Source: a virus
Strand: one strand, 5' to 3'
DNA: 39,918 bases
IMG/VR virus record: IMGVR_UViG_3300020202_000050
Location: 1-39,918 of that record
Below, in pieces: positions 4,475 to 36,544 of this stretch (its first letter is position 1; each line of letters begins with the position of its first letter). The notes under the pieces were generated by a model. It had not been told where the DNA came from. It did no database searches and saw only the letters and a list, made by a program, of their open reading frames with translations. The position numbers were made by a program, and so were the translations under genes.

Positions 4475-5205
4475 AGCTGCCTCCCCTGCGCCACGCAGTC
4501 GTATTGAGAGAAGGGGCGGATGCCCAGGCGGTGGTTCTCTTTGATGGCCCAGCCGTGGCCGACGATGGTCAGAACCTGGTAGGCACGGCGAGCCAGTGAC
4601 CATCTCTCAGAGCGCTGGGCCTTGTGGTCCAGCCACGTGCCGAGTGCCCAGTGGCCGGCGATGTACAGCGCGTTGGTCAGGAGCACCGTTGTGTGCGAGG
4701 GCTGATCGGATCCAAAGGCCAGCGAGGCGAGGTTGTTGCCTTCCCTGAGGCAGTCCGGTGCGCCGGCTATGGTCACCGTCTGCGCCGTGTCGAGCAGCAT
4801 CAGGCCGGTCATGAAGACCTGCATGTTCCGGCCGCCCTCGGTCTTGAAGCCGAGCATCGGTGCCTTGTGCGGGCGCTCGGCCGGCAGCTGGTGAGCGACG
4901 GTGGGGTTGGCCTGGAGATAGGCAGCTACGTTGCCCTCGACGTCCTTGAGGTCGGCGCGGGCGGCCATGCCGATCATCGAGCCGATGCACAGCAGGAGCA
5001 GCAGAGTGCGGGCTACGCACGCTTGAAACTCGACGTACCGACGGCGGGCGCGGCGCTCGAGCTCCTCGGCAATCTGGTCGAGCTCCTGGAGCTGAGTCTC
5101 AAGGATCGAGGAATACGGGTACTCCGCGATACGCCGCTGCAGGTCACCCTGGGCGCGCCGTAGCGTATCGGCTGAGAGGGCGGAGAGGAGGATCTGACTC
5201 GGCAT
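4471..5205 (-). CDS. membrane protein, first gene of the PL operon
   Basis: 244 residues from ATG 5205 (MPSQILLSALSADTLRRAQ). Residues about 10-60 form a charged coiled coil. A hydrophobic span (TLLLLLCIGSMIGMAA) follows near residue 70, then a larger C-terminal part with a second hydrophobic region (TVLLTNALYIAGHWALGTWL) near 185. The start at 5205 is chosen because the predicted PL transcript begins near 5230, so the in-frame ATG at 5265 would lie outside it. GGGGAAA precedes the ATG. As the first leftward early gene it could act in superinfection exclusion or early takeover, but no family is recognised. Confidence 0.65.
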   Translation of the reverse strand: MPSQILLSALSADTLRRAQGDLQRRIAEYPYSSILETQLQELDQIAEELERRARRRYVEFQACVARTLLLLLCIGSMIGMAARADLKDVEGNVAAYLQANPTVAHQLPAERPHKAPMLGFKTEGGRNMQVFMTGLMLLDTAQTVTIAGAPDCLREGNNLASLAFGSDQPSHTTVLLTNALYIAGHWALGTWLDHKAQRSERWSLARRAYQVLTIVGHGWAIKENHRLGIRPFSQYDCVAQGRQL

Positions 5206-5236
5206 CTGCTTTCCCCATCGGAGGTGATGGGGAGGG

Positions 5237-5265
5237 AGATTACCCGGGGGTAAAGCGACCGTCAA
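5237..5265 (-). promoter_or_regulatory. PL-like leftward early promoter
   Basis: Read on the minus strand: -35 TTGACG (5265-5260), 17-nt spacer, -10 TAATCT (5242-5237). Two operator-like inverted repeats overlap the spacer/-10 and the -35. The start point would be near 5230, about 25 nt before the first gene at 5205. It lies just beyond the terminator of the repressor operon, so it begins a new leftward transcript. Confidence 0.75.
5239..5254. promoter_or_regulatory. operator oL1 (16-bp inverted repeat)
   Basis: ATTACCC-GG-GGGTAAA, matching the perfect palindrome TTTACCC-AA-GGGTAAA at 6257-6272 in 13 of 14 half-site positions. It covers the spacer and -10 of PL, so a bound repressor would block polymerase. 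Confidence 0.75.
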
Positions 5266-5279
5266 TACCCGCAGGTAAA
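5264..5279. promoter_or_regulatory. operator oL2 (16-bp inverted repeat)
   Basis: AATACCC-GC-AGGTAAA, a weaker copy of the same operator. It overlaps the PL -35. Its centre lies 25 bp from that of oL1, close to the 24-bp spacing of the two sites at PR. Confidence 0.7.
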
Positions 5280-5289
5280 GTTTTTGAGC

Positions 5290-5315
5290 AAAAAAAGCCC
5301 GGCTCTTGGCCGGGC
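5290..5315 (-). terminator. rho-independent terminator of the leftward immunity operon
   Basis: On the minus strand, GCCCGGC (5315-5309), loop CAAGA, GCCGGGC (5303-5297), then seven T (5296-5290). A 7-bp GC-rich stem plus T-run. It lies 24 bp past the stop of the 40-residue membrane peptide and before PL, insulating the lysogenic transcript from the early operon. Confidence 0.85.
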
Positions 5316-5338
5316 GGTATAACCAGTTGAACGGGAAT

Positions 5339-5461
5339 CTAGTGACGCAGGTTCGCTATAGCGTTCGAGATCTCTTCGAGTTGTAATTCCAGCTTCCGGA
5401 TCCTGCTGTTTATGTCCCAGCCGACCAGAACCACTAGGATCGCGATGAACCAAAGCATCAT
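5339..5461 (-). CDS. small one-helix membrane protein, 40 aa, lysogenic operon
   Basis: Reads MMLWFIAILVVLVGWDINSR, then a charged helix (RKLELQLEEISNAIANLRH): an N-terminal membrane span with a cytoplasmic or periplasmic coiled-coil tail. The start ATG 5461 overlaps the lipoprotein stop by 4 bp (ATGA). Last gene before the leftward terminator, so probably made in the lysogen together with repressor and lipoprotein. Function unknown; surface exclusion is a guess. Confidence 0.7.
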   Translation of the reverse strand: MMLWFIAILVVLVGWDINSRIRKLELQLEEISNAIANLRH

Positions 5462-5775
5462 TGTGTCGCCGGCTGTACAGTCGGCGCTCCTTTGCAAGCG
5501 ATGATCAACGTGCGGTTTATGACCGACCCAGCGGTGAGGGTGCTGGGGTTAGCGGTCACCAGCACGCCACCATCAGTTGAAGAAGTGAAGGTGTCGTATC
5601 CACGCTCCTTGCATATGCCTCCCGCCTTCTTGAAGCACCCGGCCCAGCTGTTCGCGAGACCATCGCAGCTGATCGAGAATGCCTCGCGGCCATCCGGAGC
5701 ATAAGTCTTGCTTGCGAAGGTGCAGCCGCTAACCAGCGCCACGGCTCCCAGCGCGATTACGATTCTTTGATACAT
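5458..5775 (-). CDS. prophage-expressed lipoprotein, candidate lysogenic conversion factor
   Basis: 105 residues. Signal peptide MYQRIVIALGAVALVSGC with lipobox VSGC, so cleavage and lipidation at Cys18 are predicted. The mature part has five more Cys residues, four of which could form two disulfides. GGAG lies 6 nt before ATG 5775, and the start overlaps the repressor end by 47 bp. It sits in the repressor transcript, so it should be expressed during lysogeny. Phage lipoproteins in this position (Cor, Llp types) block phage receptors; that role is inferred from position only. Confidence 0.75.
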   Translation of the reverse strand: MYQRIVIALGAVALVSGCTFASKTYAPDGREAFSISCDGLANSWAGCFKKAGGICKERGYDTFTSSTDGGVLVTANPSTLTAGSVINRTLIIACKGAPTVQPATQ

Positions 5776-6199
5776 TCGCTTCTCCCTGTTTCTTTTTTCG
5801 TACGGGGCGACTCGGAACAATCTCCCGGGTGGCCAGCCCGACCATGTAGGTCGAAAGCAGCTCATCTGCCTTGCGCTTCGCGCTATCTGACAACCGCTCG
5901 TAAGTCTCCGGAGGAACACTAAAGGGCCAGTATTTTTGCCCTTTAGAATCATCATTCTCGGTATTTGGGTTGCTCATCCACCCGGGCATTTTCCCCATGA
6001 CTGCCTCGAGCTCTGTGGCCATATCGCCACTGATTGGCTTGATGCCCTTGCGCATCCTGCTCACATAGCTCTCGCTTAAGGGAGCCGCGCCCGGCGCGCG
6101 GGCGGCTGTGACACGCTCCGCCAAAGCAACCGCGCTGCCAGCTTGCTCGATAAGAAGTTCGAGTTTTTTGCGCCTGATGGCAGCTAGATCATTTTCCAT
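5729..6199 (-). CDS. CI-type repressor, HTH only, no S24 protease domain
   Basis: 156 residues from ATG 6199. Residues about 8-75 form an XRE-like helix-turn-helix domain (RRKKLELLIEQAGSAVALAE, then SESYVSRMRKG, then ELEAVMGKMPGWMS), the usual pattern of prophage repressors. The C-terminal part is short and ends in a very basic tail (PVRKKKQ, NRNRAGSRGAG). There is no room for the LexA/CI Ser-Lys autoprotease domain. It is divergent from the Cro-like gene across three operators. No ribosome site precedes the ATG, and a PRM-like promoter would start transcription at the ATG. Confidence 0.8.
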   Translation of the reverse strand: MENDLAAIRRKKLELLIEQAGSAVALAERVTAARAPGAAPLSESYVSRMRKGIKPISGDMATELEAVMGKMPGWMSNPNTENDDSKGQKYWPFSVPPETYERLSDSAKRKADELLSTYMVGLATREIVPSRPVRKKKQGEANVSKNRNRAGSRGAG

Positions 6200-6205
6200 C
6201 CGGCA

Positions 6206-6233
6206 ATGGTAGGCGTCTTTACTCCAAGGTAAA
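6206..6233 (-). promoter_or_regulatory. PRM-like promoter for the repressor (weak)
   Basis: Minus strand: TTTACC (6233-6228), 16 nt, TACCAT (6211-6206), each 4 of 6 to consensus. The -35 lies inside oR3. The predicted start is within 1-2 nt of the repressor ATG at 6199, giving a leaderless mRNA as for lambda cI from PRM. Weak on sequence alone; position is the main support. Confidence 0.4.
6218..6233. promoter_or_regulatory. operator oR3 (16-bp inverted repeat)
   Basis: TTTACTC-CA-AGGTAAA. It lies nearest the repressor gene and its right half coincides with the putative PRM -35. Centre 15 bp from oR2, sharing one end base with it. Confidence 0.65.
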
Positions 6234-6248
6234 TTCCCCTGGGGTATT
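6233..6248. promoter_or_regulatory. operator oR2 (16-bp inverted repeat)
   Basis: ATTCCCC-TG-GGGTATT. It overlaps the PR -35 (TTGACA at 6247-6252) by two bases. Centre 24 bp from oR1, mirroring oL2-oL1. Confidence 0.65.
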
Positions 6249-6274
6249 GACATCGCTTTACCCAAGGGTAAAGT
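6247..6274 (+). promoter_or_regulatory. PR-like rightward early promoter
   Basis: -35 TTGACA (6247-6252, consensus), 16-nt spacer, -10 TAAAGT (6269-6274). The predicted start is near 6281, and the Cro-like ATG is at 6282, so the first mRNA would be leaderless. oR1 fills the spacer and -10. Confidence 0.75.
6257..6272. promoter_or_regulatory. operator oR1 (perfect 16-bp palindrome)
   Basis: TTTACCC-AA-GGGTAAA. The half-sites are exact inverted repeats; it is the best of the five sites and is located within PR. It is the natural reference for the repressor/Cro recognition sequence. Confidence 0.8.
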
Positions 6275-6281
6275 CAGCCCG

Positions 6282-6539
6282 ATGGAAGAACTTCGCTCGT
6301 ACCTCAACTCGCTCTCCGTATCCGAGCAAGAGTCATTTGCATCGAGATGCGGAACTTCGCTCGCGTATCTCCGAAAGGGAATCTCTAAGGGGCACAAATT
6401 TGGCCCAGATTTGGTGATTGCCTTTGAGCGAGAGTCGGGTGGGGAGGTGACCTGCGAGTCTATCCGCCCTGACGTTGACTGGGCGTACCTGCGTAACTCG
6501 GTGATGCGGCCCAACGCATCCACAACGCCTCTGACTTGA
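6282..6539 (+). CDS. Cro-like regulator, YdaS-family HTH
   Basis: 85 residues. The order LRSYLNSLSVSEQESFASRCG, TSLAYLRKGIS, then IRPDVDWAYLRN is the YdaS/Cro-like pattern, where the last segment (RPDVDWAYLR) is typical of the family. It is the first gene rightward from PR, divergent from the repressor. No Shine-Dalgarno precedes the ATG, which lies at the predicted transcription start. Role by family and position: binds the oR/oL sites and turns down repressor and early transcription to allow lytic growth. Confidence 0.85.
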   Translation: MEELRSYLNSLSVSEQESFASRCGTSLAYLRKGISKGHKFGPDLVIAFERESGGEVTCESIRPDVDWAYLRNSVMRPNASTTPLT

Positions 6540-7366
6540 GGCAGCCTCGACATGCTCTCCCCCTCCCATCAAATCAGTCCATCCTTCGTGGACTTTCTGT
6601 GTAGTCCGATTCCTTCGAGTGGACGCTGCTCCAGTCGTCGCATGTCGGCAACATCGGACAATACTCATGTCTCTCGTGAGGGTTCTTTCACTTTGTCGCG
6701 CAATCCGCGGGAAAGGTTGCATGTGCATTGCAACAGGTTAAGGGAATCCCTGACACGCGGGCACCTGTACGAAGGTATCAATTCAGGAAATGACTGCAGT
6801 GCGAGTGTCATCTGGACGACACATGGCAGCTGTGAATCCGCAGCCGGCCCGGTGGACATGGGTTATGTCCGTCCTCAGACGGTTCTGACAGCGATCTCAG
6901 GGAATCCCGTAGTTTATTTGACCTCGCGAAAGTCGCTGGGCTGCACTCAAGCGCAAGCGCAACGCCTATCCAACTGTTCCAGTTCCGAGGAGGTGATGCC
7001 TCATGCCACGCGGACCACTGAGTCCCTACGACGCATCTGTGAGTCACCGCGGCGCGCGCATGCGGTAACAACACGCGCTGATGTTGAACAACCGAATTCG
7101 AGAGCCGGAGAGCAGAGGAGGGTCACGGCCTATCTGGGCACGAACTGTCACGTCGTCCCGGCTATCGATCCATTCAATGCTGCCCGCCACCAGCTTCGGA
7201 TCACTGGTGGAAGTAGCCGAGCTCAATGTCCGAGAAGGGCTCAGGTGAAAGTCACTTCAGTTGGCCGGGTGGCGCCATCCCCCTGCGTGCAAGCCCCTCG
7301 CTCATCGAGCGCTTGCACCTTCGCAGCTGGGACGAACGGCTGCGCTTTCTATAACGAGGTGGGCGC
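6540..7366. other. unresolved region right of cro (nut/antiterminator position)
   Basis: About 830 bp with no convincing gene. It holds one long open frame (6552-7370) of odd composition and several short frames that look as protein-like. One has a good AGGAGG (6988-6993) 9 nt before ATG 7003 (MPRGPLSPYDASVSHRGARMR, TAA at 7066); the same frame continues from 7081 to 7248 (55 codons, ending SLVEVAELNVREGLR). Another runs from 7226 to 7354 (42 codons, ending LIERLHLRSWDERLRFL). In lambda-like maps this is where nut sites, an early terminator and a CII-like gene lie. I see short hairpins but no T-run. Confidence 0.5.
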
Positions 7367-7370
7367 GTGA
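6552..7370 (+). CDS. doubtful 272-aa open frame
   Basis: Open for 819 nt and ending in a 4-bp GTGA overlap with the HTH gene at 7367, which argues for translation near its 3' end. Against it: Cys/Ser/Arg-rich low-order sequence, no recognisable domain, no Shine-Dalgarno at the first ATG, and competing short frames. It may be chance, or a decayed gene. Confidence 0.2.
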   Translation: MLSPSHQISPSFVDFLCSPIPSSGRCSSRRMSATSDNTHVSREGSFTLSRNPRERLHVHCNRLRESLTRGHLYEGINSGNDCSASVIWTTHGSCESAAGPVDMGYVRPQTVLTAISGNPVVYLTSRKSLGCTQAQAQRLSNCSSSEEVMPHATRTTESLRRICESPRRAHAVTTRADVEQPNSRAGEQRRVTAYLGTNCHVVPAIDPFNAARHQLRITGGSSRAQCPRRAQVKVTSVGRVAPSPCVQAPRSSSACTFAAGTNGCAFYNEVGA

Positions 7371-7603
7371 GAAAGCTCACCGACATCCAGCTGCGAATGC
7401 TCCGCTACCTCGATAGCGGCATGAGCTCGGAAGAGATCTCGAACCTGACCATGACCAACCCGAGCACGGTCAGGAATCACATCAGCCGGATCATGAAGAA
7501 GTCTCGCTGCCGATCTCTATTCCAGCTCGGCAGATGGGCCATGCGCAATGGGTATCTCCAAGTCGATACAAAAACGGTCACAGACCGGGAGTTGCGGGTA
7601 TGA
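7367..7603 (+). CDS. LuxR-type HTH-only regulator (first of a tandem pair)
   Basis: 78 residues from GTG 7367, GAGGTG 6 nt upstream. The sequence LTDIQLRMLRYLDSGMSSEEI, SNLTMTNPSTVRNHISRIMKK, then LFQLGRWAMRNGYL is the four-helix GerE/LuxR DNA-binding domain and nothing else; no ligand or receiver domain. It overlaps the next gene by 4 bp. Position between the switch and the replication genes suggests a delayed-early activator, perhaps of late transcription (inference). Confidence 0.8.
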   Translation: MRKLTDIQLRMLRYLDSGMSSEEISNLTMTNPSTVRNHISRIMKKSRCRSLFQLGRWAMRNGYLQVDTKTVTDRELRV

Positions 7604-7854
7604 ACAAGGGCGCAAAGCAGACCGTGTATCGAGAAACGCTGAAACCCGTGGATCTCAGCCCAAAGCTCAAAGAGATGCTCCGTCTTCTCGCCGCCGGCAA
7701 GACAACGCACCAATGCGCGCCTTTGCTAGGAATCACTGAGCGCAGCTCTGAGTGCTATCGCCAGAAGATCATGGAGCTCACCGGTTGTCGCACGCCTGTA
7801 ACTCTCGGTGTTTGGGCCGCTCAGCACGGCTACGCCCCTAGCGATAAATCCTAA
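7600..7854 (+). CDS. LuxR-type HTH-only regulator (second of a tandem pair)
   Basis: 84 residues from ATG 7600, ATGA overlap with the previous gene. The GerE-like order is LSPKLKEMLRLLAAGKTTHQ, CAPLLGITERSSECYRQKIME, then TLGVWAAQHGYA. The recognition helix is more diverged than in its neighbour (SSECYRQKI instead of STVRNHISRI), so it may bind a different site, or serve as a partner or antagonist of the first protein. The pair probably arose by duplication or by capture of related domains. Confidence 0.7.
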   Translation: MNKGAKQTVYRETLKPVDLSPKLKEMLRLLAAGKTTHQCAPLLGITERSSECYRQKIMELTGCRTPVTLGVWAAQHGYAPSDKS

Positions 7855-7864
7855 GGGGTAATTG

Positions 7865-7892
7865 TTGAGAGATATTTTCAGCCGTGTATAAC
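7865..7892 (+). promoter_or_regulatory. candidate rightward promoter upstream of the gene at 7901
   Basis: -35 TTGAGA (7865-7870), 16 nt, -10 TATAAC (7887-7892). Predicted start about 7899, two bases before ATG 7901, which lacks a ribosome site: another candidate leaderless mRNA. A GGGTAAT half-operator lies at 7856-7862, in the same relation to the -35 as oR2 is to PR. Confidence 0.5.
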
Positions 7893-7900
7893 ACTCACCG

Positions 7901-8074
7901 ATGAACCACTCAGAAGTCATCTGCCGCAGCTCTCCAGGCTATTTCGACCTGGCGTACGCCCTCGAGATGGCGGCCACCTGCAAGCGGCTCTCTGGTTTCG
8001 ACTTCCGGCCGTACTACTGCCGCTGCTGCACCAAGTACCACCTGAAGACCAAGAAGCAGAAGGAGCGGGTGTGA
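7901..8074 (+). CDS. small zinc-ribbon-like protein, 57 aa
   Basis: Starts MNHSEVICRSSPGYFDLAYA. The C-terminal part FRPYYCRCCTKYHLKTKKQ has a CxCC...H knuckle like the many small phage proteins ending in YxCxxCxxWHL. Likely binds zinc. The stop overlaps the next GTG (GTGA). No Shine-Dalgarno; see the promoter just upstream. Confidence 0.7.
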   Translation: MNHSEVICRSSPGYFDLAYALEMAATCKRLSGFDFRPYYCRCCTKYHLKTKKQKERV

Positions 8075-8370
8075 AAATCTACATCAGCGGACCCATCACC
8101 GGGATTCCCGATGGCAACAGACGCGCTTTCTCAATGGCCTCGATGCAACTCGACATCGCCGGCCACGAATCTGTCAGCCCGCATAACAACGGCCTACCGG
8201 CTGATGCGTCGTGGCAAGAGCATATGCGTGCCGATATTAGGATACTGATGGATTGTGAAGGCATGGCCTTATTGCCCGGTTGGCGCCAAAGCAAAGGCGC
8301 ACAGATCGAAAGAGACCTTGCCCTGAGCGTTGGCATTGTCGTGAAGCCGCTTGAAGAGTGGTTGCCATGA
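8071..8370 (+). CDS. DUF4406 protein (nucleoside deoxyribosyltransferase-like)
   Basis: 99 residues from GTG 8071. Opens KIYISGPITGIPDGNRRAF, the YISGPITG signature of DUF4406, a Rossmann-like family related to nucleoside 2-deoxyribosyltransferases. Later blocks ADIRILMDCEGMALLPGW and SKGAQIERDLAL also match the family pattern. Common in phages. A role in nucleotide salvage or modification is inferred from fold kinship, and activity is not established. Confidence 0.85.
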   Translation: MKIYISGPITGIPDGNRRAFSMASMQLDIAGHESVSPHNNGLPADASWQEHMRADIRILMDCEGMALLPGWRQSKGAQIERDLALSVGIVVKPLEEWLP

Positions 8371-8552
8371 CCGCCCCCTGGTGGCTCTACCGCCTAATCG
8401 TGCGCTGGCGCTCCTGGCGCAACATGGGCGCTCTGCTCAATCGCCGCGTCGAGGTCGAGAACGCACTGCTGGACGCATACAAGACCGGAAAGGGCATCGA
8501 TGCCGAGCAGTGCCGACTGCTGGCGTACAAGCTGGGAGTGCCGCAGCAATGA
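8367..8552 (+). CDS. hypothetical small protein, 61 aa
   Basis: Reads MTAPWWLYRLIVRWRSWRNM, then a helical acidic part and a C-terminal AEQCRLLAYKLGVPQQ. The N-terminus is amphipathic with many Trp/Arg and could sit on the membrane face. ATGA overlap with DUF4406, TGA/ATG overlap with the next gene. No family recognised. Confidence 0.65.
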   Translation: MTAPWWLYRLIVRWRSWRNMGALLNRRVEVENALLDAYKTGKGIDAEQCRLLAYKLGVPQQ

Positions 8553-8905
8553 GTCATCTCAAGAAGATACTCACGAGCGTCATTCTGGGCGCCAGAGACG
8601 GCTTTGCCATTTCGGGCTTCGTGATCACCATCCTGTGTGTCCTGGCCACGTGTGCAGGCTGCGCAGCTCGCCCAGCCCCGACCGCCTACCGCATCGAGCT
8701 CGAGGTCTACGTCCGTGACCCGCAAGCCCTGTGCCGGCGCGCCTGGGACATCGCGGTGCCACGGTTTGGGCTGTCAGTGGCCGAGGCTGTGACGATGACG
8801 CGCGGGGAGTTTGTGGCTTCGAAATGCCTGGCTGTTGTTTATCAGACAGCTGCCGTCGATGAAGTGGTGAGCGCTGGGATTCACGTCAAGGAGATATTGC
8901 AGTGA
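8549..8905 (+). CDS. membrane-anchored protein, 118 aa
   Basis: Hydrophobic segment FAISGFVITILCVLATCAGC at residues about 19-38, then a soluble domain (TAYRIELEVYVRDPQALCRRAW ...). It is either a signal anchor or an atypical lipoprotein: Cys residues close the segment, but the -3 to -1 residues do not make a canonical lipobox. ATG 8549 overlaps the previous stop. Function unknown. Confidence 0.65.
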   Translation: MSHLKKILTSVILGARDGFAISGFVITILCVLATCAGCAARPAPTAYRIELEVYVRDPQALCRRAWDIAVPRFGLSVAEAVTMTRGEFVASKCLAVVYQTAAVDEVVSAGIHVKEILQ

Positions 8906-9309
8906 GCAGATCTGGCTATTCAGATGACTTGGATGTTCTCCAGCTCGGTCGCTGGCGCGGGATCATTCGAAGCGCTAGCAAGGGGCAGCGCGGCCAGGCT
9001 TTCTTTCGCTCATTGGTCGAGGCCTTGGATGCCATGCCAGACAAACGTCTGGGCAAGGATGACATGGTAGATGACAGCGGCTGCATGTGTAGCTTGGCTG
9101 CTCTCGCCAAGCACCGCGGCAGTGATCCTGATCGCCTGAACCCTTACGACTACAAGTCTTTGGGCCAAGAATTCAACATCGCTCATCAGCTCGCGCGGGA
9201 AGTCATGTACCACAATGACCAGGGCACATGGAAACGTGAGACGCCCGAGGATCGCTGGTTGCGTATGCGTAACTGGGCCGCGGAGCAAGCAGGACTGCCA
9301 GCTGCATGA
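8902..9309 (+). CDS. hypothetical phage protein, 135 aa
   Basis: GTG 8902 overlaps the previous stop (GTGA). Sequence begins SRSGYSDDLDVLQLGRWRGI, then RGQAFFRSLVEALDAMPDKR and CSLAALAKHRGSDPDRL. This arrangement (small helical domain with GQxFFRxLxxALDAMPxKRL) is one I have seen in phage hypothetical proteins, but no function is known to me. Ends two codons into the next gene. Confidence 0.75.
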   Translation: MSRSGYSDDLDVLQLGRWRGIIRSASKGQRGQAFFRSLVEALDAMPDKRLGKDDMVDDSGCMCSLAALAKHRGSDPDRLNPYDYKSLGQEFNIAHQLAREVMYHNDQGTWKRETPEDRWLRMRNWAAEQAGLPAA

Positions 9310-35524: not shown

Positions 35525-36544
35525 CTATTTCCCGTCATTCCCGCCGCTTCCTGTGCCATTCCTTGTACGACGGTTGTCCGCGAACTGCGCGTAATCCGTT
35601 GGGCTGATGTGCCCATATCGGTCCACCAGCCTGGTATCTGACCAGCCCGCCAGCTCCTTGATGGCCGTTGCTGGCGTGCCCGCAAGCTTGTGCCACGCGG
35701 CCCAGGTATGGCGAAGGTCATGCAGCCGCAGCCCGGGGAAGCCAGCCCGCCTGCAGGCCTTACCCCAACAGGTCTTGAGTGAGCGCACTGGCGCGCGCCC
35801 GAGCTGGTCTGTGAACACGTATTCGCGATGCACGCCGCGTTGCTGCTCGAGCACCTCGAGCGCATCCGGTGGCAGCGGGAAACCGACAGCCCGCTTGCCC
35901 TTGAACTCGGAGGCTGCGATGCGGAATACCTTGGCTTCGAGGTCGACGTCCTCCCAGCGCAGCCGGAAGACGTTGCTTGCGCGGGCGCCGGTCGCGACAG
36001 AGAACCGGGTGATCTGCTTGGCGTGGTCTGGGAGCTCGCGCCACAAGGCCTCGAACTGCTCAGGCGTGATCCAGCGCGGGGCGGATTTCTCGACATGGAG
36101 GGCGGCTACTTTGGGGGCGTGCTGGAGCCATCCCCAGCGGACGGCAGCGGAAAGAACAGATGTCGCAACCGCCATGATTCGGTTGACCGTTCCGGGTCTG
36201 CGGCCGTCACTAAGACTCGCCTGTCCCGCGGCGAGCAGCGGACCGTCAATGTCGCCAAGAGCTTTCCCTCCCAGAAAACTCTCAAGGGCGTCGAAACCCT
36301 CTCGGTCGCGGTCAAGTGAACGCTTGTGGGCTTTCTCCTTGAGCCAGCGCTCTTTCGCGTCTTCCCAGGTGTGGATGACTTCGCCAAGTTCCTGCTCCTT
36401 CCAGATCTGATCTCTCAGCCGCCGTTCAAATTCTTCCGCAAGCGCCTTGCTAGCAGTGCCACACGAGACACGGACCTGCCGTTTCCTGATGGTGAACTTG
36501 CACCACCAGGTCGCTCCGGGCTTCTTACTGCGTTTGTACAGCAC
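35525..36544 (-). CDS. int: tyrosine-family phage integrase
   Basis: 339 residues from GTG 36544. N-terminal arm-binding part (LYKRSKKPGATWWCKFTIRK), core-binding SAM-like region (WLKEKAHKRSLDRDREGFDALESFL), and catalytic domain with Arg in TGARASNVFRLRWEDVD, LHDLRHTWAAWH (H-x-x-R-H) and the nucleophile Tyr in LVDRYGHIS. Recombines attP with the tRNA-Thr attachment site. The start lies inside the excisionase gene (130 bp overlap). Confidence 0.95.
   Translation of the reverse strand: MLYKRSKKPGATWWCKFTIRKRQVRVSCGTASKALAEEFERRLRDQIWKEQELGEVIHTWEDAKERWLKEKAHKRSLDRDREGFDALESFLGGKALGDIDGPLLAAGQASLSDGRRPGTVNRIMAVATSVLSAAVRWGWLQHAPKVAALHVEKSAPRWITPEQFEALWRELPDHAKQITRFSVATGARASNVFRLRWEDVDLEAKVFRIAASEFKGKRAVGFPLPPDALEVLEQQRGVHREYVFTDQLGRAPVRSLKTCWGKACRRAGFPGLRLHDLRHTWAAWHKLAGTPATAIKELAGWSDTRLVDRYGHISPTDYAQFADNRRTRNGTGSGGNDGK

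Follow-up and report, generated by a model that had tools for sequence, protein, structure and literature searches.

The question raised by this locus is what kind of switch a phage carries when its repressor has no autoprotease domain, and how such a switch would be released. An initial annotation of the window, the whole 39,918-nucleotide stretch analysed here, had described a lambda-style switch with five operators and a repressor of this kind. Our analysis makes it very probable that the locus serves a temperate phage as its immunity region, organized as a lambda-type bistable switch with a short, non-cleavable repressor. The locus itself is one more lambda-like switch with such a repressor, ordinary in kind; the interesting part is a family-wide exchange of the induction module on a fixed operator layout.

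Operators, promoters and genes of the switch

The features of the window, by position, are:

5237-5265, minus strand: PL, TTGACG (5265-5260), 17 bp, TAATCT (5242-5237), read from the sequence, with the same design in relatives
5239-5254, no strand: oL1, ATTACCCGGGGGTAAA, covers the PL spacer and -10
5264-5279, no strand: oL2, AATACCCGCAGGTAAA, overlaps the beginning of the PL -35
5290-5315, minus strand: intrinsic terminator, ends the repressor operon just before PL
5458-5775, minus strand: small lipoprotein-like gene (phrog_5685, unknown function), same direction as the repressor
5729-6199, minus strand: repressor P0001, 156 aa; HTH 1-76, WPF motif and helix 91-127, basic tail; no S24 domain
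6206-6233, minus strand: putative PRM, TTTACC (6233-6228, part of oR3), 16 bp, TACCAT (6211-6206), read from the sequence, pattern present in 42 loci
6218-6233, no strand: oR3, TTTACTCCAAGGTAAA, would provide the -35 of the putative PRM
6233-6248, no strand: oR2, ATTCCCCTGGGGTATT, final 2 bases are the first of the PR -35; centre at about -42 of the putative PRM start
6247-6274, plus strand: PR, TTGACA-16-TAAAGT, from a promoter scan; -10 ends 7 nt 5′ of the cro ATG
6257-6272, no strand: oR1, TTTACCCAAGGGTAAA, covers the PR spacer and -10
6282-6539, plus strand: Cro-like P0002, 85 aa, YdaS family
7367-7603 and 7600-7854, plus strand: two GerE (LuxR-type) HTH mini-proteins, in tandem, related to each other, with an ATGA overlap
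35525-36544, minus strand: tyrosine integrase (Pfam, 1.6e-23)

All five 16-bp inverted repeats of the initial annotation were in place, with the mirrored start-to-start spacing it had reported (25 bp for oL1-oL2, 24 bp for oR2-oR1). oR3 and oR2 start 15 bp apart and have base 6233 in common. Scanning the 39.9-kb window with the pattern TTTACCCNNGGGTAAA, allowing up to 3 mismatches, gave four matches against 0.23 expected, a number reached by none of 100 shuffles; oR2, with more than 3 mismatches, was the operator absent from these matches. With a weight matrix built from the five sites, the motif scan that had been proposed as a check placed the operators at ranks 1-5 among all 16-mers of the window (18.4-24.0 bits), and each stayed in the top five after being omitted from the matrix. 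A sixth operator was rejected: the next 16-mer, at 7847, scored 9.8 bits, 8.6 below the weakest operator.

PR was the sole sigma-70-like promoter returned by a scan of positions 5150-6400. The annotation had placed operators over the spacer and -10 of both PL and PR, and both promoters are present with their operators, PL being weaker at its -10 (TAATCT), where only 3 of 6 positions match. PRM, whose -10 TACCAT is weak, was missed by the same scan; as read here, this -10 would lie 6 nt from the repressor ATG. A scan of 5100-7500 against Rfam gave no meaningful match.

The divergent gene had been called Cro-like, and P0002 indeed fits the YdaS family: it matched Pfam PF15943 with an E value of 1.1e-6 and 28.8 bits, slightly below the 30-bit cut-off, and the Cro profile matched the solved Cro chains 8co2 and 8c7k. 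The integrase is in line with a temperate phage, and the direction it has in common with the left operon points to a map that is circular or permuted. A 272-aa open reading frame (6552-7370, plus strand), located after cro and ahead of the GerE pair, has flat GC by codon position, no family match and no relative among the compared loci, and is possibly not coding.

In the mechanism that we propose, the short repressor would occupy oR1, oR2, oL1 and oL2 and shut off PR and PL, while from oR2, at about -42, it would activate its own weak PRM. Cro would bind the same sites, and its occupancy of oR3, which holds the putative PRM -35, would shut off repressor synthesis. Given their shared base and 15-bp spacing, oR3 and oR2 would probably not be filled by dimers together.

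Switch layout among relatives and known systems

A nucleotide search of phages with window positions 4800-9300 gave no match, and the repressor as query found nothing among viral contigs and phage records. With Cro as bait, 80 viral loci and 49 genome loci were collected, the latter mostly in Beta- and Gammaproteobacteria. The region upstream of Cro in 67 distinct loci was then searched, independently of any motif, for triples of inverted repeats sharing half-sites. Most of these relatives have three right operators at spacings of 15-16 and 22-26 bp, with geometries of 15/25, 15/24, 15/26 or 16/25 scoring best in 43 of the 67, and the triples mostly scored 10-20 bits over shuffles. Half-sites differ among phages (TTACC, CACC, TTAGC, ATCAT) while the spacing stays; conservation of the geometry is thus separate from that of the motif.

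For the left pair, the three right sites of a locus were made into a motif, which was run up to 3.5 kb beyond them. In 54 of the 67 scorable loci (near-copies included), pairs 23-27 bp apart scored distinctly higher than shuffles and were mostly accompanied by a promoter of the same design as PL. The lambda-style layout first described, with divergent repressor and Cro, several operators at PR/PRM and the same operators at PL, is borne out. It is not exceptional, since three right operators with a PL pair are the rule among relatives. In one subgroup (L063-L065, L071-L078, L102 and L105) the right spacing is wider, 21-22/23 bp, with a left pair at 23 bp; its repressors carry S24 wherever the gene is complete.

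The distances to the start codons are also kept. In 38 of 42 loci, 18-21 nt separated oR3 from the repressor ATG, and AAT was kept 9-7 nt 5′ of this ATG (29-30 of the 42 loci at each base). Shine-Dalgarno-like 4-mers preceded the repressor ATG in 7 of 42 loci, with about 9 estimated by chance. The cro ATG lay 8-11 nt past oR1, and thus 6-9 nt after the PR -10, in 31 of 42 loci; a minority (L066, L067, L070, L080 and mEp043) has a longer cro leader with a Shine-Dalgarno-like sequence. We infer from these sequences a family PRM of the form TTTACY (inside oR3), about 17 bp, NNNAAT, 6 nt, ATG, which would put oR2 at about -42 of PRM. This adds a point to the annotation: oR3 would give PRM its -35, and oR2 would be centred near -42 as in lambda. 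The short distances from -10 to ATG (6 nt for PRM, 6-9 nt for PR) suggest that the repressor and cro mRNAs are both probably leaderless, beginning at or near AUG.

Lambda CI/Cro has a similar arrangement of OR1-3 and left operators, PR, PRM and PL, OR2 near -42 of PRM and a leaderless repressor mRNA, but its CI self-cleaves whereas P0001 has no S24 domain. In lambda OR2 and OR3 are further apart, and the PRM -35 does not lie inside OR3 as it would in this phage. Escherichia coli phage mEp043 (PV340537) has a Cro 49% identical to P0002, the same repressor N-domain family and TTTACC operators with right spacing of 15/25 bp and a left pair at 25 bp; it differs in its 228-aa cI with an S24 C-domain, in a cro that is not near leaderless, and in the presence of N and cII.

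The closest studied system, likened by function and layout, is PaaR2/YdaS of CP-933P, a cryptic prophage of E. coli O157:H7 and a close functional match. It too has a short repressor, a divergent YdaS-type Cro and OR and OL operators over PR, PRM and PL; PaaR2 and YdaS are reported to bind a common region and to repress both PL and PR, low PaaR2 to activate PRM, the paaR2 mRNA to be leaderless and PaaR2 to have no peptidase motif (PMC8630535). By the same account it differs in having three OL operators against two in the window, the motif GTTTAGTAA, and an operon that includes a toxin-antitoxin pair and ydaT in the role of CII (PMC8630535). RacR-YdaS of the Rac prophage likewise pairs a short repressor with YdaS, has three repeats between the two genes, reported to be bound by RacR (PMC5700373), and has the PR -35 and -10 at operator edges; its operator spacing is wider, about 25/26 bp, and its repressor family is not shared. 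No homology of RacR to the repressor was found: RacR did not match the family N-domain repressor profile even at E 10.

The repressor and possible routes to induction

P0001 matched PHROG repressor families across most of its length (8.9e-11) and no Pfam family. The absence of an autoprotease domain was upheld: no Peptidase_S24 was found in P0001 or anywhere in the window, and a model of the S24 region built from long relatives did not match P0001 even at E 10. P0001 lacks the C-terminal Peptidase_S24 of autocleaving CI repressors and is like the Gifsy-type repressors in being short and without an autocleavage domain. An AlphaFold2 model gave two confident parts, the HTH (to residue 76) and the WPF motif and helix (to about 127), joined by a flexible linker and followed by a basic tail that is disordered (about 128-156). 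It contains helices only and no strands. The repressor is more than the HTH and basic tail first described, since residues 91-127 are predicted to be structured. The WPF motif also occurs in the short repressors of L010, L015, L023, L028, L087 and L095; in the last of these, a second open reading frame with a WPF-type motif (L095:4605-5339, minus strand) lies near the repressor gene.

With no S24 autoprotease in P0001, SOS self-cleavage is not the induction route. The initial proposal that induction must work another way is a consequence of the missing domain; no antirepressor, LexA site or partner protease was identified to say which way. On our reading it would most likely involve a small antirepressor acting on the repressor. 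None was recognized among the window genes scanned, and in a comparison of gene content between short-repressor and S24 loci no gene within 6 kb tracked the short repressors across relatives; the best of the many clusters compared had a p of about 0.001 and seems to be clade-driven, with nothing of the kind shared with the window. Gifsy GfoR/GtgR and DicA are alike in size (about 135-150 aa) and have no autocleavage, but antirepressors are known for them (PMC3121763, PMC10448788).

The strongest rival is that upon DNA damage a LexA-controlled antirepressor induces the prophage, an arrangement known from Gifsy (GfoA/GftA), phage 186 (Tum) and N15 (AntC). Inactivation in this way is established for repressors that are short and non-cleavable (PMC3121763), and the top Foldseek match of P0001 was the repressor of Salmonella phage SPC32H, solved with its antirepressor (Rep-Ant, 5d50); the sequence of this repressor also matches repressor profile A1 (6.5e-14). 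The likeness is, however, confined to the HTH and does not extend to the antirepressor-binding part, and no Ant homologue was identified in the window. Nor does the window contain a perfect CTGT-N8-ACAG, GTTC-N7-GTTC or TTAG-N6-TACTA box, although the LexA motif of the host may differ; matches to GAAC-N7-GAAC lie at 10.6-10.7 kb, among replication genes. LexA control is a credible possibility that falls somewhat short of probable.

Functional temperate phages usually possess an induction input. The phage could instead have no dedicated inactivator, its spontaneous switching being driven by competition from Cro or by turnover of the repressor; CP-933P and DicA/DicC show switching that is bistable and does not depend on an antirepressor (PMC8630535, PMC10448788). 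Those two are cryptic prophages, and spontaneous switching here is doubtful.

Still less likely is SOS-independent induction led by phage regulators such as the tandem GerE mini-proteins after cro. Modules of a transcription factor and a small protein, comparable LuxR/small-protein modules among them, inactivate CI in other phages (PMC10432266), and this phage encodes two small GerE proteins. They have no autoinducer-binding domain, sit in the predicted PR operon where lambda has cII, and are absent from relatives sharing the same switch; they may be CII-like. Finally, that the operators serve Cro alone or the repressor alone, or that the repeats arose by chance, is highly improbable given the scan statistics, the conserved right triple and left pair, and the shared binding region documented in CP-933P (PMC8630535), even though the sites in this phage come from sequence analysis.

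Exchange of the repressor C-terminus

Under the proposed mechanism, the repressor C-terminus would be an exchangeable input module, here the WPF motif and helix in place of an S24 autoprotease. Peptidase_S24 was matched by 26 of 73 repressors, with sharply bimodal domain scores; of the 70 distinct repressors, 41 are without S24 and 29 have it. A short non-cleavable repressor is therefore the majority type, and it is well known from Gifsy, DicA, RacR and PaaR2, not exceptional.

On a tree of the DNA-binding domains of the 70 distinct repressors, which has few columns and many unresolved forks, the S24/short label has to switch 13 times or more, with 3 of these changes forced by starred branches. 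The Cro tree shows 12 changes, just 1 of them forced. A single clade of S24 repressors was rejected (p-AU 0.0006). Matched pairs were also found. The repressors of L023 (143 aa) and L011 (231 aa, with S24) have DNA-binding domains 66% identical, and their consensus half-site is the same; L047 and L049 are 66-69% identical in this domain to L066, L067 and L083, and further pairs are L031/L032 (62%) and L079/L041 (59%). The repeated label changes and the rejected S24 clade indicate repeated exchange of the C-terminal input module on operators and a geometry that were retained.

We put forward, at even odds, a more general proposal. A fixed circuit (oR3 fused with the PRM -35, an overlapping oR2, two left operators and leaderless transcripts) would be combined with exchangeable C-termini, so that conversion of phages from SOS-cleavable to non-cleavable repressors and back would recur with no change of operators. 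Induction input and immunity specificity would then evolve separately, and oR2/oR3 exclusion, not affinity order alone, would set the switch. This family-wide pattern may have been described earlier, the literature search having covered open-access work. Natural pairs such as L023/L011 would offer a direct test of what the induction input contributes, with the operators nearly constant. A third kind of C-terminus was seen in the repressor of L084 (left of position 6001, minus strand), which at 287 aa is long, has no S24 and carries the same type of N-domain.
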